From Marivirga arenosa (GTDB lineage: Bacteria > Bacteroidota > Bacteroidia > Cytophagales > Cyclobacteriaceae), in assembly GCF_030503895.2 (NCBI RefSeq), contig NZ_CP129970.2, positions 1,676,001-1,740,000 of the forward strand: a stretch of 64,000 bases of DNA, given 5' to 3'. The translations under genes and the position numbers were made by a program. Below the pieces are notes generated by a model that was given only the letters and a program-made list of their open reading frames with translations, was not told the origin of the DNA and did not search any database. Each line of letters opens with the position of its first letter. The first letter of the stretch is position 1. Below are positions 56,065 through 62,634 of this stretch, one piece after another.

Positions 56065-56078
56065 GATTAAAATTCAAT

Positions 56079-56107
56079 AAAAAAGGCGCTGATTCAGCGC
56101 CTTTTTT
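56079..56107. terminator. Bidirectional terminator of the peroxiredoxin and cysS genes
   Basis: GGCGCTGA (56085-56092) and TCAGCGCC (56094-56101), flanked by an A-run to the left and a T-run to the right. It ends both convergent genes. Confidence 0.85.
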
Positions 56108-56126
56108 ATGATAAATTATGATTTTT

Positions 56127-57712: not shown

Positions 57713-57744
57713 TTTGTTTTGCTCAATTATTTACTCTAAATTTG
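57713..57744 (+). promoter_or_regulatory. Promoter of rimP-nusA-infB
   Basis: TTTG (57713-57716), 20-base spacer, TAAATTTG (57737-57744): full match to the Bacteroidota consensus. Transcription should start about 57750. Confidence 0.75.
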
Positions 57745-57765
57745 CAACAAAGTTAGTAAAACAAC

Positions 57766-57810
57766 ATGACGAGGGGGCTTTTAAGTCCCCTCTTTTTTAT
57801 CGTGGAATGA
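57766..57810 (+). CDS. Leader ORF of the rimP operon (14 codons)
   Basis: ATG at 57766 opens MTRGLLSPLFFIVE and ends at TGA 57808-57810, which overlaps the rimP start as ATGA. The ORF begins about 15 bases after the expected transcript start, behind an A-rich stretch typical of Bacteroidota start regions, and runs across the terminator hairpin. Confidence 0.5.
   Translation: MTRGLLSPLFFIVE
57771..57798 (+). terminator. Attenuator-like terminator in the rimP leader
   Basis: GAGGGG (57771-57776) and CCCCTC (57787-57792), extended inward by G-U, C-G and T-A pairs, then six T (57793-57798). It lies 8 bases before the rimP ATG, upstream of the genes rather than after them. Confidence 0.75.
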
Positions 57811-58280
57811 GTGGTTTAGAAGAAAAAATACAATCTTATTTAGCTGAGATTATCACAGAGCCAGAATATTTTATTGTGGATATTGTGATTAGTGAAAACG
57901 ATAAATTGAAAATCGTTGTATTGGTGGATGGAGACAATGGCGTATCAATAGATTTTTGCGCTAGCGTAAGCCGACAACTTGGGCATAAGATGGAAGAAGA
58001 TGAAGTGTTGGAAAAGGCTTATGTGTTAGAAGTTTCATCTCCGGGTTTGGATCATCCTTTAATGAATGCTAGACAATATCAGAAGAATATTGGAAGAAAA
58101 GTAAAGGTTGATACAAAGGAAAGTAAATCGATAAGAGGCGAATTACTTGAAGTTAGTGAAGACTTTATTCTTGTAAATCAAGAGATAAAGGAAAAAGGAA
58201 AAAAGAAAATTAAACATGAGGAAACGAAAGTTCCTTTTGACATTATAGACAAAACAAAAGTCTTGGTTTCATTTAAGTAA
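57807..58280 (+). CDS. rimP: Ribosome maturation factor RimP
   Basis: A 157-residue protein from ATG 57807 (a TTG start at 57714 would translate through the terminator and add an unrelated N-terminus). Family marks are EYFIVDIVISENDKLKIVVLVDGDNGVSIDFCASVSRQLGHKM and YVLEVSSPGLDHPL. RimP binds 30S precursors and helps final maturation. It is the first gene of the operon; nusA starts 1 base after its stop. Its start is overlapped by the leader ORF stop. Confidence 0.93.
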   Translation: MSGLEEKIQSYLAEIITEPEYFIVDIVISENDKLKIVVLVDGDNGVSIDFCASVSRQLGHKMEEDEVLEKAYVLEVSSPGLDHPLMNARQYQKNIGRKVKVDTKESKSIRGELLEVSEDFILVNQEIKEKGKKKIKHEETKVPFDIIDKTKVLVSFK

Positions 58281-58281
58281 C

Positions 58282-59523
58282 ATGGACACATCAAATTTAA
58301 TAGAATCGTTTGCCGATTTTGCAAGGCAGAAAAATATCGACCGTCCAACCATGATTCGAATCTTGGAGGATGTATTCAAAACCATGATTCGTAAGAAATA
58401 CGAAACGGACGATAATTTTGATATAATTATTAATGCCGATAAGGGTGACCTTGAAATCTGGCGTTTCAGAGAAATTGTTGATGATAACTCAGAAGATATC
58501 TGGGATCATGATAAAATTAGTTTAACTGAAGCTAGAAAAATTGAGCCTGATTTTGAAATTGGTGAAGAAGTAGCTGAGGAGGTTGAACTAGAGCACTTCG
58601 GAAGAAGAGCCGTTACTACAGCTCGTCAAACATTGATTCAGAAGGTAAAAGATCTTGAAAAAGATATTTTATTTAACAAGTATAGTGAATTAGTAGGGGA
58701 AATTATCGCTGGTGAAGTATATCAAATCTTAAGCCGTGAAACTTTATTAACAGATGCGGAAGGGAATGAGTTGGTATTACTAAAATCTGAGCAAATCCCT
58801 AAAGATAGATTTAGAAAAGGAGATTCTGTTCGTGCCGTTGTTCACAGAGTGGAAATGCAGAATGGTAATCCTAAAATTATATTATCAAGAACTTCTCCGG
58901 TTTTCCTTGAGCGTTTATTCGAGCAGGAAGTTCCAGAGGTTTATGATGAATTGATCACCATCAAGAAGATTGTAAGAGAACCAGGCGAAAGAGCGAAAGT
59001 AGCCGTGGAATCTTATGATGATAGGATTGATCCGGTAGGAGCTTGTGTGGGGATGAAAGGTTCAAGAATTCACAGTATAGTAAGAGAATTACAGAATGAA
59101 AACATTGATGTAATTAATTATACTGAAAATATGGAGCTTTACATTCAGCGTGCATTAAGCCCTGCAAAGTTAAGTTCTATGAAAATTGATGAAGAGAATA
59201 AACGAGTTTCAGTATATTTGAAACCTGATCAAGTCTCTTTGGCTATTGGTAAAGGAGGTCAGAACATCAAGCTTGCTAGTAAATTAGTAGGTATGGAAAT
59301 CGATGTTTTCCGTGAGTTATCTGAAGCGGAAGAAGAAGATGTGTTGATTGATGAATTCAATGATGTTCTTGAAGATTGGGTGATCGAAGAATTGAAGAAA
59401 GTTGGGCTCGACACTGCCAAAAGAGTGTTAGAATTAGGAAGAGAAGAGTTAGTTAGAATGACTGACTTAGAAGAAGAAACAATAGACGAGATATTTAAAA
59501 TATTTAGTCAAGAATTTGAGTAA
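58282..59523 (+). CDS. nusA: Transcription termination/antitermination factor NusA
   Basis: A 413-residue NusA with an N-terminal RNAP-binding domain (about 1-130), an S1 domain (about 130-195), and two KH domains: DPVGACVGMKGSRIHSIVRELQ and SLAIGKGGQNIKLASKLVG. A short helical region (DVLEDWVIEELKKVGLDTA...LEEETIDEI) follows, like the C-terminal SAM-like repeat. It binds RNA polymerase and affects pausing, termination and antitermination. NusA controls its own operon in E. coli, so the leader terminator in front of rimP is a natural target. Confidence 0.95.
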   Translation: MDTSNLIESFADFARQKNIDRPTMIRILEDVFKTMIRKKYETDDNFDIIINADKGDLEIWRFREIVDDNSEDIWDHDKISLTEARKIEPDFEIGEEVAEEVELEHFGRRAVTTARQTLIQKVKDLEKDILFNKYSELVGEIIAGEVYQILSRETLLTDAEGNELVLLKSEQIPKDRFRKGDSVRAVVHRVEMQNGNPKIILSRTSPVFLERLFEQEVPEVYDELITIKKIVREPGERAKVAVESYDDRIDPVGACVGMKGSRIHSIVRELQNENIDVINYTENMELYIQRALSPAKLSSMKIDEENKRVSVYLKPDQVSLAIGKGGQNIKLASKLVGMEIDVFRELSEAEEEDVLIDEFNDVLEDWVIEELKKVGLDTAKRVLELGREELVRMTDLEEETIDEIFKIFSQEFE

Positions 59524-59576: not shown

Positions 59577-62552
59577 ATGTCAGAAGAAAAAATGATGCGA
59601 CTCAGCCTTGCGGCAAGAAAATTGAATGTAGGATTATCTACAATCACAGACTTCTTGGGCAAAAAAGGTTATGAGGTGGATAGTAAACCAAACTCCAAAA
59701 TATCAGAAGAGCAATTTGGTATGCTCGCAAAAGAGTTTGCCTCCTCTGCACAAGAGAAAGAGGAAGCATCCAGTCTGTCCATTGGTAAAAAGCATAATAG
59801 CAATGTGGTCATCGATTCAGAGGCAGATAAAAGCAAAGAGGCGGAAAAGGAAGATGATGAAGACAAAGTATTGATCAAAAATGCTGGTGAATCAAAAGAA
59901 AAGCCAGCAGCAGAACAAAAGCCTGTAGAAGAATCATCTGCTAAAAAAGAGGAAGAGAAAAAGGAAGATGACGTTTACAGATCTGAAAGCCATAAACTTT
60001 CTGGCCCCAAAGTATTAGGTAAAATTGACCTAGATGATAAAAAGGCTAAGAAGAAGGAAGAAACTCCAAAAGAAGAGCCTAAGAAGCCTAAAGAGGAACC
60101 TAAAGAAGAAAAGCCAGAAGTAAAAGCTGAAGAGAAAAAAGAAGCGCCAAAAGAAGATAAAAAAGTTGAGGCTCCTAAGGCAGAAAAAGAAGAGCCAAAG
60201 GTAGAGGAGAAAAAGGAAAAAGAGCCAGAGCAACCTAAAGCTGAAGAAAAGAAGGAAACTCCTAAAGAAGAGAAGAAAGAAGAAGCTCCAAAAGCTGAAA
60301 AACCTAAAACTGATGAGAAATCTGATGAGGAATCTAAATCAGTGGAGGAACAAAAGGATTCCACGATTTCAGCAAAAGCAGATTCTCTTAAAGGACTTAC
60401 TGTATTAGGTAAAATTGAATTACCGAAAGAGAAAGAGAAAAAGGGTAAAAAAGGCGTTAAGCCAGTTGCTTCTTCTGATGATAAGAAAGAAAATAGAAGA
60501 GGAAAACGACCTAGAAAGAGAATCGCCAGCAATAAACCACAAGATGCAAGAGCAAAAGGTGGTGGTCAAGGCCAAGGCGCAAATAGAGGTGGCGGAAGCG
60601 ACAGAAATAGAGGTAGAAAAGGTAGAGTAGAAAAGGCTGAGCCTACTGAAAAGGAAATCCAAGAGCAAATTAAACAAACGATGGCTCGTTTGAGTGGTAA
60701 ATCACCAGGAGCTAGCGGTAATCGATCAAAATATAGAAAGGAAAAGCGTCAAACTCAGGCTGATAAAAGAGAAGGAGATCTTCAACAGCAAGAGCAAGAA
60801 GCTAAAATCCTTAAAACAACAGAGTTCATATCAGCAAATGACTTGGCATCATTAATGGATGTAAGTGTAAATGATGTTATAGGCAAATGTATGAACCTTG
60901 GTATTTTTGCTTCTATTAACCAAAGATTAGATGCAGAAACCATCACTATAATTGCGGATGAATTTGGCTATGATGTTAAATTCACTGAAGCAGATGATGA
61001 AACGGAGGTTGTTGAAGAAAAAGATAGACCAGAAGATCTTACAGATAGAGCTCCGATCGTTACGATCATGGGGCACGTTGACCACGGTAAAACATCATTA
61101 CTAGATTTTATTAGGGAATCAAAAGTAACTGCAGGTGAAGCCGGTGGTATTACGCAGCACATTGGTGCATATGATGTAATGACCGATTCTGGTAAAAAAG
61201 TGGCATTCTTAGATACTCCAGGTCACGAGGCCTTTACAGCTATGCGTGCTCGTGGTGCTAAGATCACTGATGTTGCCATAATAGTGGTAGCTGCTGATGA
61301 TGCTGTGATGCCTCAAACGAAAGAGGCAATTAACCATGCTCAGGTTGCAGGCGTACCAATGGTAATTGCTATTAACAAAGTAGATAAGCCAAATGCTAAC
61401 CCTAATAAAATTAAGGAAGAATTAGCAAACATTAATATTCTAGTAGAAGACTGGGGTGGTAAATACCAGTGCCAGGAAGTATCGGCCAAAACAGGAGCTG
61501 GTATTGAAGACTTATTAGAGAAAGTATTATTAGAAGCTGAAGTACTTGAATTGAAAGCAAATCCAGCTAAATCTGCTGTAGGTACTGTAGTAGAGGCTGA
61601 GTTAGATAAAGGTAGAGGTTATGTGACTACTATAATGGTTCAAGCAGGTACCTTGAGAGTAGGAGATGTGGTATTAGCCGGAGCTCACTATGGTAAGGTA
61701 AAAGCCATGTTTGACCACAAAGGTAAAAAAGTGGATGAGGCAGGTCCTTCAACACCAGTATTGATGCTTGGTTTAGATGGAGCACCACAAGCAGGTGACC
61801 GTTTTAACGTTATGGAAAGTGATCGTGAAGCAAGAGATATTGCGAATAAGCGTGAGCAAATCCAGCGTGAGCAAAGCATGCGTACTAAGAAGCATATTAC
61901 GCTTGATGAAATTGGCCGTAGATTGGCAATTGGTTCATTTAAGGAATTGAATGTGATCATCAAAGGTGATGTGGATGGTTCAATCGAAGCCTTATCTGAT
62001 TCATTGTTGAAGCTTTCAACTGAAGAAGTTCAAGTTAACATTATCCATAAAGCTGTAGGGCAGATTTCTGAATCTGATGTATTATTAGCTTCTGCTTCCG
62101 ATGCGATTATCTTAGGTTTCCAGGTTCGACCTTCTCAAAATGCTAGAAGAATAGCAGAGAATGAAGAAATCGAAATCAGGTTATACTCTATCATCTACGA
62201 TGCGATTAATGAGATCAAAGATGCAATGGAAGGTATGTTGGCACCAACTACTGAAGAAGTAATTACGGGTAATATTGAGGTTCGTGAAATCTTTAAAATC
62301 TCTAAAATCGGTACTGTTGCAGGTTGTATGGTAACAGACGGTTATGTGAAGCGTAATAATAAGATCAGATTAATTAGAGAAGGTATTGTGAAGTACGAAG
62401 GAGAAATTGATCAATTGAAGCGTTTCAAAGATGATGTTCAGGAAGTGAAGAAAGGATATGAGTGTGGTATTAGTATAAAAGGCTATAACGACATCAAAGA
62501 AGGAGATGTAATCGAAGGATTCGAAGAAAGAGAAGTAAAAAGAAAGCTTTAA
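59577..62552 (+). CDS. infB: Translation initiation factor IF-2
   Basis: A 991-residue GTPase that brings fMet-tRNA to the ribosome. The first ~330 residues hold an IF2_N-like start ([20 protein letters not shown]) and a long low-complexity stretch rich in K, E, P and A. The G domain has GHVDHGKTS near 499, DTPGHE near 548 and NKVD near 600. A second IF2_N domain precedes it, and the C-terminal domains II-IV end in [25 protein letters not shown]. It starts 53 bases after nusA and has a strong terminator. Confidence 0.97.
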
Positions 62553-62573
62553 TAGCTAATTCAAATTATATAC

Positions 62574-62609
62574 AAAGCCGATTGGATTCAATTCCAATCG
62601 GCTTTTTTT
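62574..62609 (+). terminator. Terminator of the rimP-nusA-infB operon
   Basis: Thirteen-base arms AAAGCCGATTGGA (62574-62586) and TCCAATCGGCTTT (62593-62605), loop TTCAAT, then T-run. Confidence 0.9.
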
Positions 62610-62634
62610 ATATCTATTGTGGATTCGAAACCGT

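Follow-up and report, generated by a model that had tools for sequence, protein, structure and literature searches.

What does a terminator-like hairpin do when it stands directly behind a promoter and directly ahead of the genes that the promoter should serve? This arrangement precedes the rimP-nusA-infB operon in a 64,000-nucleotide (nt) stretch of the Marivirga arenosa genome (contig NZ_CP129970.2, positions 1,676,001 to 1,740,000; henceforth the window), where an initial annotation had proposed an attenuator governed by translation of a 14-codon leader open reading frame (ORF). Because a conserved terminator stands after the promoter and before rimP-nusA-infB, we read 57771-57798 as a promoter-proximal attenuator of this operon, acting most likely through NusA-stimulated termination (probability about 0.68). 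The features concerned are the following.

57713..57744, + strand: Bacteroidota-type promoter, recognized from the sequence by TTTG at 57713-57716, a 20-nt spacer and TAAATTTG at 57737-57744
57766..57810, + strand: 14-codon frame of the initial annotation (ATG 57766, TGA 57808-57810), judged a chance occurrence
57771..57798, + strand: intrinsic terminator and putative attenuator, with stem 57771-57779/57784-57792, loop TTTA at 57780-57783 and six T at 57793-57798
57807..58280, + strand: rimP, 157 residues (Pfam RimP_N and DUF150_C)
58282..59523, + strand: nusA, 413 residues (Pfam NusA_N and KH_5), candidate effector of the attenuator
59577..62552, + strand: infB, 991 residues, encoding IF2 (Pfam IF-2, IF2_N and GTP_EFTU)
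62574..62605, + strand: ordinary terminator of 13 pairs right behind infB, for comparison (62560-62612 folds at -21.6 kcal/mol)

The hairpin between promoter and rimP

The promoter and the hairpin with its six T residues, the latter lying inside the 14-codon frame, are present where the initial annotation had placed them, although the promoter is better read as one of Bacteroidota type. Transcription is predicted to start at about 57749-57752, which would give a leader of about 57 nt up to the rimP start, and the hairpin ends 14 nt ahead of that start. The stem (57771-57792) has nine pairs, one of them G-U (core GGGGGC/GTCCCC), around a loop of four. The segment 57766-57799 folds at -16.5 kcal/mol (z -4.25, equalled by 1 of 200 shuffles) and 57750-57799 at -18.0 kcal/mol (z -4.69, equalled by none of 200); besides the terminator stem, the minimum-energy fold of the longer segment contains only one small stem further upstream. 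It is these fold shuffles and the comparison between species, not a simple pattern scan, by which the hairpin exceeds chance, since such a scan of the surrounding 10 kb gave seven terminator-like sites against 5.6 (standard deviation, sd, 2.1) expected. The stem pattern was found at a single place in the 3.94-Mb genome by motif search, and membership in a genomic repeat family was rejected: a DNA search gave 28 matches at E values up to 10, of which only the one here was full length.

We then followed the leader through relatives. The rimP gene was found in all 10 genomes of the genus, in 346/390 of the order, in 230/247 of the class and in 147/148 of a phylum-wide draw, these draws overlapping. 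The leaders compared number 166, one per genome (142 from Bacteroidia and 24 from other classes), and comprise 10 from the genus, 25 further order loci, 40 chosen by genus or family label, 27 class loci, 40 chosen by family label and 24 (4 + 20) from the other classes. Selection relied on the rimP match and the family label, and never on the leader sequence; families with weak matches are under-represented because the sample leans to the better-listed rimP matches. Left out of the counts were L001-L003 (second copies of genus leaders), L094 and L101 (repeat genomes), 16 further Bacteroidia loci of the phylum draw and the stretches fetched for the motif check described below. The rimP starts of relatives were set by rule.

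A hairpin with T-run scoring at least 20 is present in 147/166 leaders, compared with 0.54% of shuffles (20 per leader), and one scoring at least 18 in 152/166, compared with 1.84%. These 152 leaders (135 from Bacteroidia, 17 from other classes) are the set for the counts that follow. All 10 genus leaders keep the hairpin. Among the seven Bacteroidia leaders outside this set, a relaxed search, run without shuffle control, gives a hairpin in L084, L127 and L129 (in L129 further upstream), and reading by eye shows the GAGGGGAC/GTCCCCTC stem unchanged in L121, followed by a poorer T-run, and an imperfect stem in L138. In the other classes the relaxed search gives a hairpin in 21/24 leaders. Positions 1-6 past the stem are T in 70-88% of the 152 leaders, a figure that is partly built into a detector requiring both T-run and pairing. 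Three leaders (L066, L077 and L084) place the hairpin about 100 nt or more ahead of rimP, leaving a long second leader stretch.

Since the detector demands pairing, re-dealing the arms between leaders (0.927 vs 0.425) was circular; that test was discarded and replaced by an alignment built from sequence alone. It holds 88 leaders anchored on the promoter; each genus or family label contributes one, and all come from the leaders in which both hairpin and promoter box had been detected. Paired cells make up 93.8% of the stem, compared with 88.1% in shuffles; two-sided changes occur in 7/8 stem pairs (4.0 in shuffles, 5 of 500 reaching 7) and in 41 cells (11.9, sd 2.7, in shuffles, none of 500 reaching it), with the caveat that related sequences may exceed shuffles even without structure. 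All six slid registers score below the true one, and RNAalifold, unprompted, returns the same stem minus its innermost pair. The hairpin is thus real and old.

Its position is equally regular. The motif TAnnTTTG, which PMC9723704 calls the -7 box, lies 5-40 nt ahead of the hairpin in 134/152 leaders, where base shuffles give 5.5 (sd 2.5) and a control segment further upstream 5/152; the box together with a TTG spaced 18-22 nt from it is found in 96 leaders against 0.9. Within the genus all 10 leaders have TAAATTTG, and eight of them, by eye, agree in every letter from TTTG to TAAATTTG. The median distance is 22 nt from box to stem and 18 nt from stem to rimP start (range 4-152, 151 leaders). 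As the latter is below 60 nt in 140/151 leaders, there is little or no space for a further promoter in between, and the position of box and hairpin together with the short gap puts the terminator within the first ~50 nt of the predicted operon transcript. With the leaders lined up on the stem, the spacer between promoter and hairpin has low information content and no other strongly conserved element, and therefore gives no sign of a riboswitch; a conserved sensor in this interval was sought in the spacer conservation and dismissed.

The stem sequence is itself distinctive. Its commonest Bacteroidia form is GAGGGGAC(loop)GTCCCCTC-T, with the usual core GGGGAC/GTCCCC, in which an A-U pair stands between G-run and C where the window has G-U. 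Among the 143 hairpins with at least seven pairs, 66 share AGGGGAC/GTCCCCT as their inner seven. GAG before and AC after GGG are strongly preferred, the spacer showing no such preference (GGG itself is invariant through the choice of anchor). A G-run occupies the 5' arm in 127/135 Bacteroidia leaders, compared with 3/32 control terminators taken from these loci and from the window. Across the class, 62 exact copies of GAGGGGAC..GTCCCCTC are spread over 61/247 genomes (three places for a reversed control pattern), so most genomes, that of the window included, carry a variant stem. Of these copies 60 lie at rimP: 54 adjoin a listed rimP (coordinates compared by eye), and six of the other eight proved rimP-adjacent after their surroundings were fetched. 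The two off-rimP copies (L208 in genome G447 and L213 in G601) each follow an ORF at a distance of about 15-25 nt and are probably ordinary 3' terminators; the proteins ahead of them presumably end in a secretion sorting tail. Elsewhere in the window, a strong terminator hairpin at 56077-56109, with a T-run on either strand, separates cysS from an ORF that we take to be peroxiredoxin-like.

The 14-codon frame and other explanations

The initial annotation had also described the frame 57766-57810, the TGA of which overlaps the rimP ATG (57807-57809) as ATGA. Both are there, and the proposal built on them was that ribosomes translating the frame cover the hairpin and permit read-through, so that the operon senses translation capacity. 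A leader peptide, however, is not what the relatives suggest. When the spacer is shuffled, 38.5 (sd 4.9) of the 152 leaders are expected to have an ATG frame across the hairpin, and 35 do; 6.7 (sd 2.0) are expected to have such a frame ending on the rimP start, and nine do. Allowing GTG and TTG as starts gives 80 crossing frames (77.8 expected) and 16 that end on the rimP start (12.4, sd 2.8). With the window's genus excluded, ATG frames cross in 29/142 leaders (37.0 expected) and end on the rimP start in 3/142 (5.2, sd 2.0). A leader peptide was rejected on these nulls, and the 14-codon frame looks like a chance occurrence. The conserved letters within it are mostly those of the hairpin. The rimP frame, too, extends upstream across the hairpin, as far as a TTG at 57714 within the promoter (open over 57714-58280), which we likewise take as chance.

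Within the genus, seven of 10 leaders do keep a start codon in frame (six ATG at two places and one GTG), which together with the ATGA ending is what speaks for a leader peptide: L009 has the GTG, and L007, L010 and L011 have their ATG one codon later. The frame is lost in the remaining three, since L006 has ATC in place of ATG, and in L012 and L013 no frame crosses the hairpin and ends on the rimP start. Geometry argues in the same direction. The ATG lies just ~15 nt past the predicted transcript start, at about +16, with the stop point at about +48, so that hardly more than the hairpin would be exposed after the ATG; judging from known footprints, a ribosome would hardly find space there ahead of termination. 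The Streptococcus agalactiae leader of the same operon, according to PMC4448216, stops 31 nt past its start; scarcely any space for such an ORF is left there. Nor does the leader of the window pair its stem arms in another way in either its minimum-energy or its centroid fold. Translation of the leader is thus unlikely, and its control of read-through very improbable. The initial annotation had made conservation among Bacteroidota rimP leaders the measure of its ORF and its hairpin alike; the relatives keep the hairpin and not the frame, so that its attenuator of rimP-nusA-infB is supported, as a conserved terminator after a promoter, while the coupling to translation is not.

The hairpin could act otherwise than as a regulated terminator. 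That it is a fixed 5' element, governing messenger RNA stability or rimP translation, would suit its closeness to the gene (14 nt in the window, a median of 18 nt in 151 leaders), yet the T-run past the stem (70-88% at positions 1-6, partly by construction) and a gene distance that ranges from 4 to 152 nt, odd for the control of one start codon, make this improbable. It could also end an upstream transcript and shield rimP from read-through. We see nothing specific in favour of this, and it can hardly be correct, given that the upstream gene, cysS (Pfam supports CysS), is divergent from the co-directional rimP, nusA and infB (the initial annotation was right to exclude a terminator for cysS), and that a promoter box directly precedes the hairpin in 134/152 leaders. 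A regulated terminator may instead answer to an effector other than NusA: RimP, IF2, NusG or the state of RNA polymerase, for example sigma retained near the promoter. The stem sequence is kept beyond what pairing demands (66/143 share the inner seven pairs), so something may read the stem, and RimP feedback is named as a possibility in PMC2965389. Against these candidates, which we consider unlikely, stands NusA feedback, which the sources cited below document or propose for homologues of the operon in three further bacteria.

A proposed NusA switch

In the favoured reading, RNA polymerase would start near 57750, and some of the complexes would terminate at about +45 to +50, yielding a short RNA, while the remainder would read on into rimP-nusA-infB. 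NusA most likely stimulates the stop, so that its operon would be transcribed less when NusA is abundant and more when it is scarce. Neither a leader peptide nor an antiterminator would be needed, and termination in a leader without visible antiterminator fits NusA-stimulated attenuation. We know of no antiterminator involved in the autoregulation of nusA in Bacillus subtilis.

Several observations weigh against this reading. Two of the 142 Bacteroidia leaders, L065 and L143, show no hairpin candidate by eye. Outside Bacteroidia the orientation of the stem is not general: the 17 scored leaders of other classes divide into eight G-first, seven C-first and two with neither, and the relaxed search gives a G-first hairpin in 11/24. 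The leader hairpins are, moreover, as strong as other terminators (median -15.1 vs -15.0 kcal/mol, 135 leaders against 32 controls) and have a similar number of T in the first 9 nt (5.75 vs 5.50, same sets). NusA-dependent terminators of B. subtilis tend to be weak; a weak terminator as a possible signature of NusA was looked for, and leaders and controls did not differ. As stems and T-runs are no weaker than elsewhere and G-first is not general, the case for NusA as the most likely effector comes from the homology of the operon and from the arrangement of its leader.

The other classes also vary in layout. Tandem terminator-like hairpins precede rimP in L187, L197 and L201, with the G-first one leading; the second is C-first in L197 and L201, and by eye the order in Escherichia coli is the reverse, C-first and then G-first. 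L188, L190, L192 and L204 have a lone C-first (inverse) hairpin 11-20 nt ahead of the expected rimP start, for example TCGCCCG(TAA)CGGGCGA.

A further idea, tentative and rather doubtful, is that Bacteroidia keep the stem GGGGAC/GTCCCC as a sequence, and right behind the promoter, for a factor that reads the hairpin itself, most likely NusA as it takes over from sigma on a polymerase only just past the promoter. If true, this would be a promoter-proximal terminator read by sequence and counting free NusA, a self-limiting switch of ~50 nt used across a bacterial class. In any case these leaders, each with promoter, ~20 nt, stem and T-run, form a compact natural set for asking what keeps the sequence of a G-on-left stem, and the tempting notion of an operon sensing its ribosome supply through a leader peptide is removed as unsupported.

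Relation to known rimP leaders

How does this element relate to leaders already described? Naville and Gautheret (2010) ranked rimP first among genes under attenuation and described its leader, the most ubiquitous attenuator, as GGGc(...)gCCC, with NusA as best candidate effector (PMC2965389). The window shares with their rimP-leader the terminator upstream of rimP-nusA-infB, the G-rich 5' arm, C-rich 3' arm and U-run, the short and variable distance to the gene, and the lack of a larger conserved element. Its 14 nt falls within the 4-130 nt given there, which the 4-152 nt of the relatives slightly exceeds. The strict GGGC/GCCC, by contrast, is not the commonest form here, the Bacteroidia core being GGGGAC/GTCCCC. 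The word start "Bacteroid" is absent from the main text of that paper, the supplementary lists of which may hold Bacteroidota. The Rfam rimP family (RF01770) does not recognize the window hairpin: scans at gathering and permissive thresholds gave no Rfam match there, and a genome-wide RF01770 search gave none above cut-off and placed none of its 30 matches at the hairpin. Given a conserved hairpin and U-run in a 5' leader (its start predicted), G-rich and C-rich arms, the gene distance and no larger element, we class the element with the rimP-leaders, as a Bacteroidota version reduced to a minimum and close to the promoter.

In B. subtilis, NusA is autoregulated through NusA-stimulated termination in the leader (PMC12288461), so that intrinsic termination in a 5' leader governs entry into the gene as we propose for the window; the dependence on NusA was demonstrated there, whereas here it is deduced. 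The B. subtilis rimP leader is given as 180 nt (PMC2965389), compared with a predicted ~57 nt in the window. A closer match in layout is the gbs0413-gbs0418 leader of S. agalactiae, for which PMC4448216 reports the same rimP-nusA-infB operon, termination 31 nt past the start, short and long transcripts from one start, and a suggested NusA feedback. The window leader would share termination directly after the transcript start, although S. agalactiae belongs to another phylum and its leader is documented by RNA, the window element by sequence. E. coli has two terminators upstream of rimP, and its transcripts rise in mutants with less NusA termination (PMC6511841). Read by eye, a GGGC(TTTAG)GCCC-T7 hairpin stands right before rimP in the metY-rimP-nusA-infB operon, as in the window; E. 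coli differs in having an inverse hairpin (CCCCGAT..ATCGGGG) further upstream and the metY transfer RNA before that.

Within the phylum, among the papers listed by our literature searches, screened mostly by title and the start of the abstract, the one mention of the element in Bacteroidota is in PMC9723704. That paper lists for Flavobacterium psychrophilum a structured 5' element upstream of rimP, without Rfam hit and conserved in other Flavobacteriaceae genera. It agrees with the window hairpin in being a structured stretch of a rimP leader from this phylum, and the two are likely identical, although the source names it only in a list. With the window and its relatives, a feedback switch known for core factors of transcription and translation would reach through a whole class whose promoters are unlike those of E. 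coli.
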